This document shows positions 8,824-58,603 of a DNA stretch of 64,000 nucleotides, piece by piece. The position numbers and the translations under genes were made by a program. The DNA comes from Epilithonimonas zeae. GTDB taxonomy: Bacteria; Bacteroidota; Bacteroidia; Flavobacteriales; Weeksellaceae. Where the stretch lies: contig NZ_CP075338.1 of assembly GCF_023278365.1 (NCBI RefSeq), forward strand, positions 3,534,001 through 3,598,000. The letters run 5' to 3'. Position 1 is the first letter of the stretch, and each line of letters starts with the position of its first letter. The notes under the pieces were generated by a model, which was not told the origin of the DNA, ran no database searches, and worked only from the letters and a program-made list of their open reading frames with translations.

Positions 8824-8904
8824 GTTGATGGTTGTCGGTTGATAGTTGATAGAAACTCTCCCGACAGCCAACAACTGACAACTGACAACTAACAACTGAC
8901 AACT
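8824..8904. repeat. 7-bp-phased intergenic hairpin element (permease 2/3 junction)
   Basis: This is the clearest copy. The left arm is gttgatg, gttgtcg, gttgata, gttgata (8824-8851). After two spacer 7-mers the right arm is agccaac, aactgac, aactgac, aactaac, aactgac, running straight into the ATG of permease 3. GTTGACA/GTTGTCA-type words on the left pair with their complements on the right, giving a long imperfect stem next to a translation start. Confidence 0.75.
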
Positions 8905-13474: not shown

Positions 13475-14165
13475 CATTTAGATTCACAATGTCAGTCTGA
13501 GTATTTCGACTACGCTCAATATAAACTACGTCGAAGACTTTCATCAAAAAATTCTTATTATTATTATTTTCTTATGAATCCTTCCAAAGACTCACACTTT
13601 GGAGGGATTTTTTATTGAAAATTATTTGACTTTGTGGAACCAATTCGTTAGGTTTGGGCGCCTTTATCCGCCTTCCGCTCCCAATCTTTTCACTCCACTA
13701 CGTTGCGTAAAAAGGATTTCCGCTCAAGTCGGGGCGCAAATTCAGCATAAAACAATATTAGTCATAGTACATAATGTTTGGCATTCCGTAGGAAACCTAA
13801 CAAAGCCGTTCGACGGAGTCAATTTCAGCAGTCTAGATTCCTACGGAATGAAGAACTGGATGTTTTTAATTTTATTTCTTTGATGAGCGAAGCATCTTGC
13901 GACCCCTAAAAATATTTTCAATAATAATAAAAAAATCTTTGCACTCTTTGCGTTCAAAAATAAAAATTAATTCCAATTTTAATATAAGCGAAGTGCCTAT
14001 GTGAACCCTAAAATGTTTTCAATCAATTAATAAAATCTTTATGAACTTTGTGTTCAAAATCCCTCGCTTTTTAAATTTAAAAATCGCATTTTTGCAAACC
14101 TTCTCAAGCATAATCAATGAAACGTCTTGACGTTCCATCTGGCTTTAACAACAATAAAAATTAAG
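13475..14165. repeat. Gene-free stretch made largely of dispersed repeat elements
   Basis: No convincing gene is present. In order it holds: a 'gtcagtctgag...tcgaagac' element (13486-13542); a 'ccgccttccgctcccaatctttt...aaaaggatttccgctcaagtcgg' element (13655-13745, printed here as two short parts); a palindromic element with 13-bp perfect arms (cattccgtaggaa at 13782-13794, ttcctacggaatg at 13838-13850); and two direct copies, 100 bases apart, of a roughly 74-base unit ending 'ctttgcgttcaaaa' and 'ctttgtgttcaaaa' (13887-13960, 13987-14060). Related copies of several of these lie elsewhere in the window. Confidence 0.65.
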
Positions 14166-42904: not shown

Positions 42905-43020
42905 ACAAAGTGGCGAAATGTTGGTAGAAATATATATTTGCTATCAAAAGGTGCGAAGCACCGACATCAAAAAAATCCAGCGAATTGCTAACTAGCCCCG
43001 ATGGGAACGGCATCCTTTTT
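42905..43020. repeat. Dispersed intergenic element remnant
   Basis: The stretch contains 'cgaaatgttggtagaaatat', 'ggtgcgaagcacc' (a short palindrome) and 'actagccccgatgggaacgg'. These are words I recall from dispersed repeats of Flavobacteriia. No gene was found in it. Related words ('tagctccagcggagcg', 'ggtgcgacctgtta') occur at 57265-57345. Confidence 0.4.
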
Positions 43021-43108
43021 TGTTTTCTGATTCTCATTTCTATCGGATTGACAAATGTTATGAAAACAAAAAAGATATAGTGGACAGCGGGATTTAGCTT
43101 CTAAAAAA

Positions 43109-54774: not shown

Positions 54775-55188
54775 TCACTTGTTAGACCTCATCGCTTTGA
54801 CTTTTTTAACAAAACCATCTTTCAATAATTCTTGATATTCTTCCGACTCAGCGGGAACCAATTGAACTTTCGAATCCTGATTATGGAAAATCCCGAATCC
54901 ATTTTTCTTCACCAAAGGCGAAGTCCGCAAACAAGCTTGACCTTTTGAGAAAAAATTTTGTTTCTCTTCTTCCAATTCTGAAGGCGAAATATCATTTCGT
55001 TCCGCAAAAATTTCGAAAAGCAATTCGTCAGAAGTATATTTCAGAGGATGTTTGGAAAGTTTCTCGTATTGATAATTGGCAATCGTCTTTTTATCATTCT
55101 TCACAGCCGGAATTACTGATGCAGAAACCGGAGAATCTTCAGCAATTTCTATCAAGGTGTTGGTGTAATTGGTGGTGTGGGTTTTCAT
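54775..55188 (-). CDS. DUF6157-like protein
   Basis: The 137-aa product starts MKTHTTNYTNTLIEIAEDSP. It contains 'KKTIANYQYEKLSKHPLKYTSDELLFEIF', which follows the pattern I recall for DUF6157 (quoted by its parts). It is small and probably cytoplasmic; the function is unknown. Its ATG overlaps the stop of the SSS symporter by one base (TGATG), so translation is probably coupled. Confidence 0.65.
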   Translation of the reverse strand: MKTHTTNYTNTLIEIAEDSPVSASVIPAVKNDKKTIANYQYEKLSKHPLKYTSDELLFEIFAERNDISPSELEEEKQNFFSKGQACLRTSPLVKKNGFGIFHNQDSKVQLVPAESEEYQELLKDGFVKKVKAMRSNK

Positions 55189-56759
55189 CAGACTAATTTC
55201 AAACTTCTAGCCTTCACCAACCACAACCCAACAAAAGTCAAAAACCCATTCAGGATAATCAGTTCCACACCAATTCTGTAATCTGTGTTATTCGTTACCA
55301 GATAATTAATCAGATAAGTCACAACAGGCGCCAAAATCGTCACTGCCAAAATGGAATATTTCTTCGTGATTTGATATTTCGTCAAAATTCCGAAAGCAAA
55401 TAATCCCAATAACGGACCGTAAGTATAACCCGCCACTTCCATTATCAAATAAACAATCGACTTGTCATTGATGGCTTTGAAAACCATTATCAAAACAAAG
55501 AAAATCACAGTGAAAGTCAAATGAACCTTCATTCTTAGATGTTTCTTTTGTTTCTCGGTTTTTTGCTGGTCTTCGTTCAGGTTTAATAAATCTACGCAAT
55601 AAGAACTCGTCACCGCCGTCAAAGCACCATCAGCAGAAGGGAACAGAGCGGAAATCAAACCGATGATGAAAATCACGGAAAGTGCCATCGGGAAATGACC
55701 TTGAAGCGATAGAGCAGGGAAGAGGTCGTCGCCCATTATATTTTTGATTTGACCCGCAGAATCTTTGAAACCAAAAGTATTCGTAATCACTTCTTTTCCA
55801 TCAACCATAGTTGATATTTGTCCATAATCTGCGCCGTGCTGTATTGCAAAAAGATAAAGCAAACCACCTAAAAATAAGAATGCTAGGTTCACGAAAAGCA
55901 AAGTTCCGGCAAAGGTCAGCATATTCTTTTTCGAGTTTTTCAGATTGTCAACCGAGATGTTTTTCTGCATCATTTCCTGATCCAGACCCGTCATTGCAAT
56001 CGTGATAAACATTCCACCCAGAATCGTTTTCAGGAAGAAGGTTTTAGAATTCACATCCGTATTGATAAAGTGTGTGTATTGCTTCTGTTCAAGAATAGAA
56101 AATGCTTCTCCAAAAGACAGATTAAGATTTGATAAAATATATACAATGCAGGCAATCAGACTGATAATCATAAACGACGTCTGCAACGTATCAGTAATCA
56201 CAATCGTTTTCACACCACCTTCAAACGTGTAAAGCAAAATCATTAATAACAATATAAAAGCCGTTACCCAAAACGGAACACCAAGCGCTTCCAATAGGAA
56301 AATCTGAAGAATATTCACCACCAGATACAATCTCGCCGTCGCACCAATCGCTCTAGAAATAATGAAAAATACGGACCCGATTTTATGCGCCTCCACATTG
56401 AAGCGTTTCCCGAGATAAGTGTAAATCGAGGTCAGATTCATCCGGTAATAAAGTGGGAGCAAAATCCCCGCAACTATGAAATAACCGATGAAAAACCCAA
56501 TCACCATCATATAATATTCGAAGCCGCCAAACGCATAATCGCCCGCCGTCATCTTGCCCACCGTTCCCGGAACCGAAATAAACGTCACACCCGAAAGCGA
56601 TGTTCCGATCATCCCAAACGCCACCAGCCACCATTTACTTTTTTTGTTTCCGATGAAAAAAGACTGATTGTCCGAGTTACGGCTTGTAAAATAAGAAATG
56701 ACCAAAAGCCCGATAAAATAGGCAAAAACGAATAAAAGTAGAATAGTTCCCGGATTCAT
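55188..56759 (-). CDS. Sodium:solute symporter (SSS family)
   Basis: The 523-aa product has about thirteen membrane helices with an outside N-terminus. 'GTSLSGVTFISVPGTVG' near residue 55 and 'GLISALFPSADGALTAVTSSYCVDLL' near 365-390 are the Na-site and family signatures. It resembles the Na+/sugar-sialic acid-proline branch commonly found in Bacteroidetes. The substrate is not readable from sequence. It is translationally coupled to a DUF6157-like gene. Confidence 0.88.
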   Translation of the reverse strand: MNPGTILLLFVFAYFIGLLVISYFTSRNSDNQSFFIGNKKSKWWLVAFGMIGTSLSGVTFISVPGTVGKMTAGDYAFGGFEYYMMVIGFFIGYFIVAGILLPLYYRMNLTSIYTYLGKRFNVEAHKIGSVFFIISRAIGATARLYLVVNILQIFLLEALGVPFWVTAFILLLMILLYTFEGGVKTIVITDTLQTSFMIISLIACIVYILSNLNLSFGEAFSILEQKQYTHFINTDVNSKTFFLKTILGGMFITIAMTGLDQEMMQKNISVDNLKNSKKNMLTFAGTLLFVNLAFLFLGGLLYLFAIQHGADYGQISTMVDGKEVITNTFGFKDSAGQIKNIMGDDLFPALSLQGHFPMALSVIFIIGLISALFPSADGALTAVTSSYCVDLLNLNEDQQKTEKQKKHLRMKVHLTFTVIFFVLIMVFKAINDKSIVYLIMEVAGYTYGPLLGLFAFGILTKYQITKKYSILAVTILAPVVTYLINYLVTNNTDYRIGVELIILNGFLTFVGLWLVKARSLKLV

Positions 56760-56820: not shown

Positions 56821-56936
56821 TGGGCAGCTATTTCCGCCTTCCGCTCCCAATCTTTTTTGCAGACCATTTCAAATTAAATAGAATTTCTGTACACGCAAAA
56901 AAGGATTTCCGCTCAAGTCGGGCTGCACATTCGGTA
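56821..56936. repeat. Dispersed element, second copy of the 13655-13745 type
   Basis: Both copies share 'tccgccttccgctcccaatc' and 'aaaggatttccgctcaagtc', and both have a 'ggg(c)gc(a)' end. Copy 2 has a longer divergent centre. A chimeric third copy is at 17951-18010. Confidence 0.65.
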
Positions 56937-57054
56937 TAAAAAAAAGATTACCCTAAAAACGCAATTTTGTCATTCCGTAGGAAGCCTAACGAAGTGGTTA
57001 GACGAAGTCAATCTCAATCTCGTAGCTGTTCAAATAAAAAAGTCAAAAAGTAAA

Positions 57055-57264
57055 GATGTAATTTGATATTCTTACGATGTGATTGGATATTGTTAAGATG
57101 TAGAAGAATATTTTTACGTTGTGCTTGGATATTCTTGAGATGTTGCTGAATATTTTCGCATTGTTGAGGAATATTCTCGCGATGTGAAATTATATTCTTA
57201 CAATATGAAAGTATATTCTAGCTCCTGTAGGTTACATTCTCCAACCTATTAGACATATTCCCGA
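57055..57264. repeat. Ten-unit 21-bp degenerate tandem array with variable core
   Basis: Units start at 57055, 57076, 57097, 57118, 57139, 57160, 57181, 57202, 57223 and 57244, with no length change in any. Consensus within a unit: positions 1-5 GATGT (decaying in the last three), 6-11 variable, 12-17 ATATTC with A12, A14, T15 and T16 invariant in all ten, 18-21 roughly TTAC/TCGC. The ten 6-nt cores are all different (aatttg, gattgg, agaaga, gcttgg, tgctga, tgagga, gaaatt, gaaagt, taggtt, ttagac). Units 1-8 are the best conserved. Confidence 0.85.
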
Positions 57265-57385
57265 CAAACTAGCTCCAGCGGAGCGTGCTGTTAATAGATT
57301 CCAAATATACCTTGTAACGAAGTGTCATAGGTGCGACCTGTTAACAATACAACTTCCAAAAAATTCTTATTCAAATCCCGATAAT

Positions 57386-58603
57386 CTACTTCATTACAAT
57401 CATTCTCTTAACAACCACATAAATAAGAATCGCTGACAAAGCCAAAACCGTAAACGAACCAACCCAAAGACTATCAAACCCAAAGTGGCTCACAACATAA
57501 GTCCCCAAAAACGGCGTGAAAATAAAGGAGAACGAAAATGCAATACCGTTCAGTCCCATATAAGCACCTTTGTTTCCTTTCTCAGCACGTAAAGCCGTAA
57601 CGGTTGACATAAACGGAAGCACCCAAATCTCTGCAATAGACAAAATCGACATCGATAACAAAAGCAACGGAATGTTACTTCCAAAAAGTAGCAGCAGATA
57701 AGAAAAACCTGACATTATAATCCCAATGGACAAGATTTGCGGAATCTTCAAAACCCGTTCTGCTAGACTTACCAAAGGCATTTCCAACAATACGATAATG
57801 AATCCACTGTATCCTAAAATAAAACCAATCGTACTTTGATCCAATTTCGCAACGTCTTTATAAAACAACGGAATCGTATTGAAAAACTGGAAAAAACAAA
57901 CAGCGAAAACTGCACACAAAAAGCTGTAAAGCAAAAATGGATAATCTTTGTAAGGCGATTTTGTAACCGCCTTTTCAACAGGTTTTATAGGTTCTAATTT
58001 CTTTTTCTCTCGGAAGATTTTATTTCTTCTTCGGAAAAATATAACGTAGATAATCCCTGCAATAACGGCTCCGATTGCATTCACAATGAAAAGGAAATTA
58101 TAAGAAATCCCCGACAAAATTCCGCCCAAAGCAGGACCAATCGAAAAACCTAAATTAACGGCCATTCTGTTGAGAGAGAAAGCTTTAGTCAGATTCTCGG
58201 GTCTTGCATATTTTGTAATCGCCACCGAATTCGCAGGTCGAAACGTATCACTGATTGTACTTTGCAGAAAAATTAATAAAGCCATCATTTCCACACTTGA
58301 GAAAAACGGCATAATGATAAATATCGGCGCACTAAGAAACAGACTCCAACTTTGGATATAATATTCTCCAAATTTATCTGTCAAAAAACCGCCCAGCCAA
58401 GAACCTAAAACAGAACCGATTCCGTAAAAGCTTAAAACAATTCCTGTATTTTCCAAAGAAAACTTCAAATGGTCTGTCATATAAACACCCAAAAATGGTA
58501 AAACCATCGAACCGGAACGATTGATGAGCATCACGATGGACAACATCCAGGCTTCTCTGGACAGTCCTTTGAAAGTGTTGATATAGGAATTGAAAAGTTT
58601 CAC
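57386..58603 (-). CDS. MFS transporter
   Basis: The 405-aa product has twelve helices. The loop 2-3 motif is 'GGFLTDKFGEYYIQSW', and 'RMAVNLGFSIGPALGGILSG' forms the motif C-like segment of drug-export MFS proteins in TM5. The charged central loop ('RRRNKIFREKKKLEPIKPVEK') separates the two six-helix halves. It is likely an exporter. It is monocistronic, with a TATTTTTG -7-like box on the minus strand at 58620-58627, 17 bases before the start. Confidence 0.87.
   Translation of the reverse strand: MKLFNSYINTFKGLSREAWMLSIVMLINRSGSMVLPFLGVYMTDHLKFSLENTGIVLSFYGIGSVLGSWLGGFLTDKFGEYYIQSWSLFLSAPIFIIMPFFSSVEMMALLIFLQSTISDTFRPANSVAITKYARPENLTKAFSLNRMAVNLGFSIGPALGGILSGISYNFLFIVNAIGAVIAGIIYVIFFRRRNKIFREKKKLEPIKPVEKAVTKSPYKDYPFLLYSFLCAVFAVCFFQFFNTIPLFYKDVAKLDQSTIGFILGYSGFIIVLLEMPLVSLAERVLKIPQILSIGIIMSGFSYLLLLFGSNIPLLLLSMSILSIAEIWVLPFMSTVTALRAEKGNKGAYMGLNGIAFSFSFIFTPFLGTYVVSHFGFDSLWVGSFTVLALSAILIYVVVKRMIVMK

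Follow-up and report, generated by a model that had tools for sequence, protein, structure and literature searches.

Between a symporter gene and a transporter gene, the chromosome of Epilithonimonas zeae carries ten consecutive 21-bp units that share a constant frame and differ from each other in their cores, and the question that this locus raises is what kind of element such an array represents. The window analysed here is the whole 64-kb stretch (positions 3534001-3598000) of a genome that consists of one contig of 3.94 Mb. An earlier note on this DNA, made from the letters alone, had proposed a multi-site binding array, the template of a small RNA or a remnant of a heptad-coding repeat.

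The array and its surroundings

The array (Table 1) is gap-free, and at this spot the identity between positions 21 bases apart is 0.65 (168 positions), against 0.435 or less in 40 simulated first-order Markov windows; this excludes chance as its origin. The best three lags across the whole window are 21, 42 and 63, and TRF likewise detects the array, as overlapping arrays of 21 bp and 42 bp. The natural unit, ATATTCTYRYNNYNNNANNNN, begins at ATATTC. Much of the earlier description stands: ten units of 21 bases follow each other without an indel, positions 12 and 14-16 (A.ATT) in the register used there are invariant, and positions 6-11 are different in all ten units. The motif GATGT, which had been described as kept in most units, is found in roughly the first seven and marks one subtype (A); the last two units, at the 3′ end, belong to another, B-like subtype (CTCCTGTAGGTT). 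Similarly, the six-nucleotide cores do differ in every unit, yet an A at natural position 17 (A17) is conserved across the array family, although it is present in only half of the units in the window. The minus-strand frame of 67 codons (57217-57014), which lacks a start codon and repeats the pattern N-I-x-x-H/Q, was also found as described; a coding remnant, heptad-based or other, is nevertheless rejected because the equivalent frames of relatives contain stops and the variation is not codon-like. No link was found between the 21-bp period and the "ABC-operon elements" with which it had been associated. A short array of the heptamer ACAACTG (about five copies, 8863-8904) elsewhere in the window is unrelated to the 21-bp array.

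Table 1. Features at and around the array, in window coordinates
Feature	Position	Strand	Evidence and remarks
Sodium:solute symporter-family gene	55188..56759	-	Pfam SSF, E 7e-16; other border of array site 1
Flavo-1 RNA motif	56827..56928	-	Rfam RF01705, 42.8 bits against a gathering cut-off of 42
21-bp array	57055..57264	+	Ten units; natural register 57066, 57087, ... 57255
Dispersed REP-like element (AGCTCC..GGAGC..CTGTTAATAG)	57270..57298	+	Touches the 3′ end of the array; flank comparison
MFS transporter gene	57386..58603	-	Pfam MFS_1, E 1e-47; 3′ end of the gene adjoins the array

Orthologues of the MFS gene mark the same site in relatives. The Flavo-1 motif on the symporter side lies outside the array, in the interval that separates it from the symporter gene, and is context; two further Flavo-1 motifs (RF01705) occur at 13660-13740 (minus strand) and 42990-43098 (plus strand), which brings the total in the window to three. 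REP-like elements of the AGCTCC..GGAGC type adjoin arrays at all three sites that are conserved in the genus (seen in relatives for sites 2 and 3), and a second kind of REP-like repeat (GTCATTCCGTAGGAA..) stands beside the window array at 56969-57020.

Related arrays and a linked gene family

Similar arrays are present in the genus, as found by a DNA search of 60 relatives, and of 22 good congeneric genomes 18 are matched by a four-unit model built from sequence only. Genome-wide counts from model and pattern searches give three arrays in total for the genome studied here, all of them origin-proximal. The genus-conserved sites are the symporter/MFS interval that holds the window array (site 1), the interval between a gene for a protein of about 388 aa and one for a 230-aa peptidase S51 (site 2), and one flanked by a gene for a protein of about 244 aa and a neighbour that, from a reading of its protein, we take to be pnp (site 3). 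When all MFS orthologues were read blind to the arrays, site 1 was found to be occupied in 10 of 22 species, in a single orientation throughout, and to be without an array in the other 12. In one species (G012) it holds a collapsed remnant of two units; the copies of the linked gene described below are broken in the same genome (L296, C10), as if the two had decayed jointly. Turnover is evident elsewhere too: the arrays of G008 and G021 have their last unit and flank in common and differ in their interiors, one and the same locus holds 16 units in G004 and 10 in G016, and higher-order repeats are built of 84-bp blocks in this genome's second array and of 105-bp blocks in G020.

Across the Weeksellaceae the array family was found in 32 of 199 genomes, representing six genera. 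A strict search of an order-wide sample found arrays within this family only and none beyond it; Galbibacter mesophilus, a member of a different family, also has such an array. In the Weeksellaceae, additional arrays without the gene occupy conserved loci, mostly near the replication origin, and these orphan arrays lie in either orientation relative to neighbouring genes. A pattern scan of GTDB genomes returned degenerate, non-coding 21-bp lookalikes containing ATATTC in Bacteroidales and Bacilli (L087, L068, L069, L113, L063, L120); the family gene was not found in their fetched flanks.

The linked gene became apparent at the home copy of this genome, outside the window, where an array at about 420.4-420.6 kb lies directly behind a gene (420719-421450, minus strand) for an undescribed protein of about 244 aa with the sequence "SEVGHAKNVANL...". 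The site-3 array lies 3′ of this gene and on the same strand in several genera, and divergent paralogs (31-45% identical) are also followed by arrays with a period of 21 or 42 bp, with wholly different unit sequences. A class-wide profile search of 396 Bacteroidia genomes detected the family in 40, with up to six matches per genome, and most of these copies have adjacent arrays. With the best lag chosen among 52 lags, and strong periodicity defined as an identity of at least 0.55, the downstream flanks of non-redundant copies have a best lag of 21 or 42 in 60 of 66 cases, 57 of them strongly periodic, compared with 7 of 67 upstream flanks, of which two reach the threshold (L305 and L327, where the array is upstream). 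The best-lag criterion by itself is loose, as 13 of 52 control ORFs from the window pass it; the threshold of 0.55 is the reliable one, and the single control ORF that reaches it is the one beside the window array. Among more distant copies an adjacent array was found in 15 of 19, upstream in six, and the copies with an array 5′ of the gene (L340, L341, L331, L332, L333, L345, L305, L327) belong mostly to distant subfamilies. The exceptions comprise one copy with no array (L306), one with an array nearly lost (L293), the broken copies of G012, one with a different repeat beside the gene (L328), and one (L329, genome G630) in which a repeat of about 22 bp (AATCCAAGCGGGTACCCATGTT) replaces the 21-bp array downstream of the gene. 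The anatomy is well supported: nearly every copy of the gene in Bacteroidota stands next to a 21-bp array, and divergent paralogs have different units.

Similarity between arrays follows similarity between proteins (Mantel r 0.45, p≤0.0005), chiefly in the clade whose units contain ATATTC; outside it the correlation is 0.26. The proteins of G004 and G016 are 93.5% identical, yet their home arrays are of different subtype. In ten of the 32 array-bearing genomes a close copy of the gene is lacking, and a strict partnership between the 244-aa gene and every array is therefore rejected; the link is strong and not obligate. Orphan arrays score slightly higher in genomes that bear the gene (p ~0.036). 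Two contigs in a viral collection (IMG/VR) carry the gene near the contig end, both with arrays, and these could be host flank. Phage and plasmid records gave no match to the family, and phages and plasmids were rejected as its source.

The family consists of basic proteins for the most part (median pI 8.8), about 245 aa in length, that are predicted to be all-helical and internally duplicated. An AlphaFold2 model from 30 aligned members (mean pLDDT 89.5) is all-helical, with predicted helices at 4-25, 38-73, 76-88 and 94-107 in the first half and at 133-153, 167-203, 209-224 and 229-235 in the second; these two similar four-helix halves are homologous by hhalign (E 2e-7). No usable family match was obtained from Pfam (30 members), NCBIfam, PADLOC, PHROGs or PDB sequences, and the family databases gave no nuclease- or transposase-like match. 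DUF6261 was considered as a distant relative and set aside as too weak (2 of 30 members, best E 0.0017). A fold search against the PDB and viral models gave no significant match, and by PDB fold comparison the fold is unlike any known DNA-binding domain. No account of the family or its arrays, and no earlier description of a gene-plus-21-bp-array system in Bacteroidota, was found in a literature search that covered mainly open-access papers.

Conserved positions, level of action and chromosomal location

A conservation profile of 197 units from 17 arrays gives the consensus ATATTCTYRY plus A17 amid free positions. Information ranges from 0.03 to 1.89 bits per position over the unit: positions 1-5 (ATATT) hold 1.7-1.9 bits and positions 6-10 hold 0.7-1.25 bits, A17 holds 1.48 bits even though it lies outside the search motif, and positions 11, 16 and 20 hold 0.03-0.18 bits, with the minimum at position 16. 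In two pairs of same-length arrays, substitutions spare positions 1-7: G022 and G023 differ 5 times at positions 1-7 and 13-15 and 56 times at the others, while for this genome and G005 positions 1-7, 15 and 17 account for 3 substitutions and the remaining positions for 29. A neutral variable-number repeat is expected to vary in unit number, as is seen between G004 and G016, and to degenerate evenly over its positions, which this spread of information contradicts; constraint as uneven as this is not what a decayed minisatellite predicts. The outcome that the earlier note had named as the mark of such decay, identical cores in the same order with neutral drift, was not seen in related species at the same locus, where the cores differ and unit positions 1-7 are nearly unchanged. 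The array is a series of sites with fixed contact positions inside a minisatellite-like turnover. Dyad symmetry within units was not significant in a column-permutation test, on which basis dyad-symmetric operator units are rejected, and an operator array of the LytTR type is rejected as the linked protein has no match to the LytTR DNA-binding domain.

Whether the array acts as DNA or as RNA can be approached through its position relative to transcription signals. Of 56 copies, 36 have a terminator-like hairpin that separates the gene from its array or falls within the first units, compared with 4.4 expected from shuffling, and this usual placement of a terminator ahead of the array favours action at the DNA level; the copies in which the array lies 5′ of the gene point the same way. 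When folded as RNA and compared with column-permuted controls, the arrays showed no general structure (median z -0.5), and units are often identical or arranged in higher-order repeats, unlike unique spacers. A DNA-level role is favoured over an RNA-level one, and among the three options of the earlier note the multi-site binding array is the one best sustained, although binding itself is something that we infer; the small-RNA template is disfavoured on the absence of general structure, the identical units and the terminators before the array. The terminator palindrome of several ATATTC-clade members is in register with the array: the array 5′ ends of L257, L236, L245, L250 and L262 hold intrinsic terminators whose palindrome centre, GAATATTC, falls in the 21-bp register. 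This suggests that an array could have been seeded or grown from terminator halves.

The location of the arrays is suggestive only. In this genome dnaA is at 439 and the arrays are found at -349, +158 and +420 kb; the positions relative to dnaA are -366, +69 and +361 kb in G016, and the distances in G221 are 27, 564 and 565 kb. The origin-proximal half contains 17 of the 18 arrays from ten genomes assembled into one or two contigs (KS p 3e-6), a value that becomes p = 0.012 when each locus type is counted once and that then rests on few independent loci. One outlier array lies at 0.68 of the half-chromosome, arrays far from dnaA occur in G070 (+906 kb) and in the drafts G020 and G219, and site 3 may be origin-proximal because pnp is.

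Explanations weighed and known systems compared

We give about an even chance to the explanation that the window array belongs, as an orphan, to a cassette system composed of the protein and its 21-bp array, in which the protein binds the array and perhaps organises the origin region. The family protein probably binds along one face of the DNA: it would recognise double-stranded DNA through the few positions that are conserved in each unit, and as 21 bp corresponds to two helical turns, ten or more molecules could be placed on one helix face and assemble cooperatively over 200-400 bp. Further assembly sites would be provided by the orphan arrays, which may, in the least certain step of the scheme, organise or anchor the origin-proximal chromosome. 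Arrays grow and shrink by tandem duplication, and in this way units are replaced with the contact positions retained. Binding leaves two observations unexplained, namely the array-bearing genomes without a close gene copy and the difference in subtype beside nearly identical proteins. A wider proposal, that these are an unrecognised class of chromosomal protein-DNA arrays with orthogonal paralog-array pairs, and that additional arrays of one type near the origin form a Par-independent centromere-like or nucleoid-anchoring system, is doubtful.

It is unlikely, though it would account for several observations, that gene and array are a selfish element whose protein amplifies or copies its own array and whose orphans are debris of no service to the cell. 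The presence of several paralogs per genome and of orphan arrays at multiple loci, the fast unit turnover with changes in copy number, the REP-like neighbours, and the pseudogenised gene and collapsed array of G012 would all fit; such an element does not readily explain why sites are retained across species and genera and contact positions are conserved within old arrays, and it lacks both a nuclease- or transposase-like family match and phage or plasmid copies. We consider improbable a system that works through array transcripts, with the protein bound to the repeat RNA, as a 3′-UTR regulator or a guide array like that of TIGR-Tas. The gene does stand beside a short-period array whose repeats are constant within a locus and different between loci, home arrays of the ATATTC clade are always in gene-sense orientation, and the window array taken alone folds better than its controls (z -3.4 against column-permuted and -3.5 against dinucleotide-shuffled sequences); the terminator that usually precedes the array, the arrays 5′ of some genes, the lack of general structure, the identical units in place of unique spacers and the lack of a Nop domain weigh against it, and the last three led to the rejection of a guide-RNA array. 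The least probable account is an ordinary degenerate minisatellite without function, its link to the gene being historical. Unit-number variation at one locus, higher-order blocks that reflect tandem-duplication dynamics, and the absence of the site-1 array from more than half of the species would be expected of it; the position-specific constraint, the conserved loci, and the retention of a 21-bp period over unrelated unit sequences beside one gene family would not.

A protein family without an entry in Pfam, NCBIfam, PADLOC or PHROGs, present in about a tenth of the sampled Bacteroidia, is tied to arrays that are rewritten for each divergent paralog with the period kept, and this link accounts for intergenic repeats otherwise dismissed as minisatellites. 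If the protein binds its array, these genomes offer a natural series of protein-array pairs in which binding specificity and cooperative DNA assembly can be studied, together with a candidate system of chromosome organisation for a phylum whose systems of this kind are little known.

Several known systems resemble this arrangement in part. Iteron plasmids carry direct repeats beside the gene of a Rep initiator with duplicated domains, and here too direct repeats in the range of about 17-22 bp, spaced at about two helical turns, lie beside the gene of a duplicated-domain protein. Unlike iterons, the present arrays are chromosomal, multi-copy and mostly behind a terminator, with no plasmid match, and the protein, predicted to be all-helical without winged-helix strands and with no Rep family match, does not correspond to a winged-helix Rep initiator. 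ParR-parC, ParB-parS and RacA/ram each combine a protein with multiple cognate sites near the origin. Multiple sites near the origin are what the array family may have in common with them, as a functional analogy only; fold and sequence are not shared, neither ParB nor a ribbon-helix-helix centromere-binding protein was matched by family or fold, and the long 21-bp tandem arrays are particular to the present system.

Two intergenic repeats are comparable as DNA. The minisatellite MITE BrickBuilt of Porphyromonas gingivalis, also in the Bacteroidota, has 23-nt units of similar length at many intergenic loci, but the unit is different, it has terminal inverted repeats, and the accessible part of its description links no protein family to it (PMC4596501). 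The TAACTGA direct repeats of Beggiatoaceae, found in some Bacteroidota as well and proposed to be protein-bound, have a fixed 7-bp unit placed mostly just 5′ of start codons, again with no linked protein family in the accessible part of the report (PMC4679880). The nearest system in layout is TIGR-Tas, in which two alternating repeats of 8-12 nt with unique 9-nt spacers form an array that is processed into RNAs of about 36 nt, together with Nop-domain proteins (PMC12045711); a Nop domain gave no Pfam match in 30 members of the present family and no significant PDB fold match. Both systems place a short-period array beside the gene of a small protein, with terminators nearby and with repeats that are constant within a locus and differ from one locus to another. 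Unlike those of TIGR-Tas, the arrays described here have a 21-bp period and many identical units, and the conserved A17 splits their variable part.
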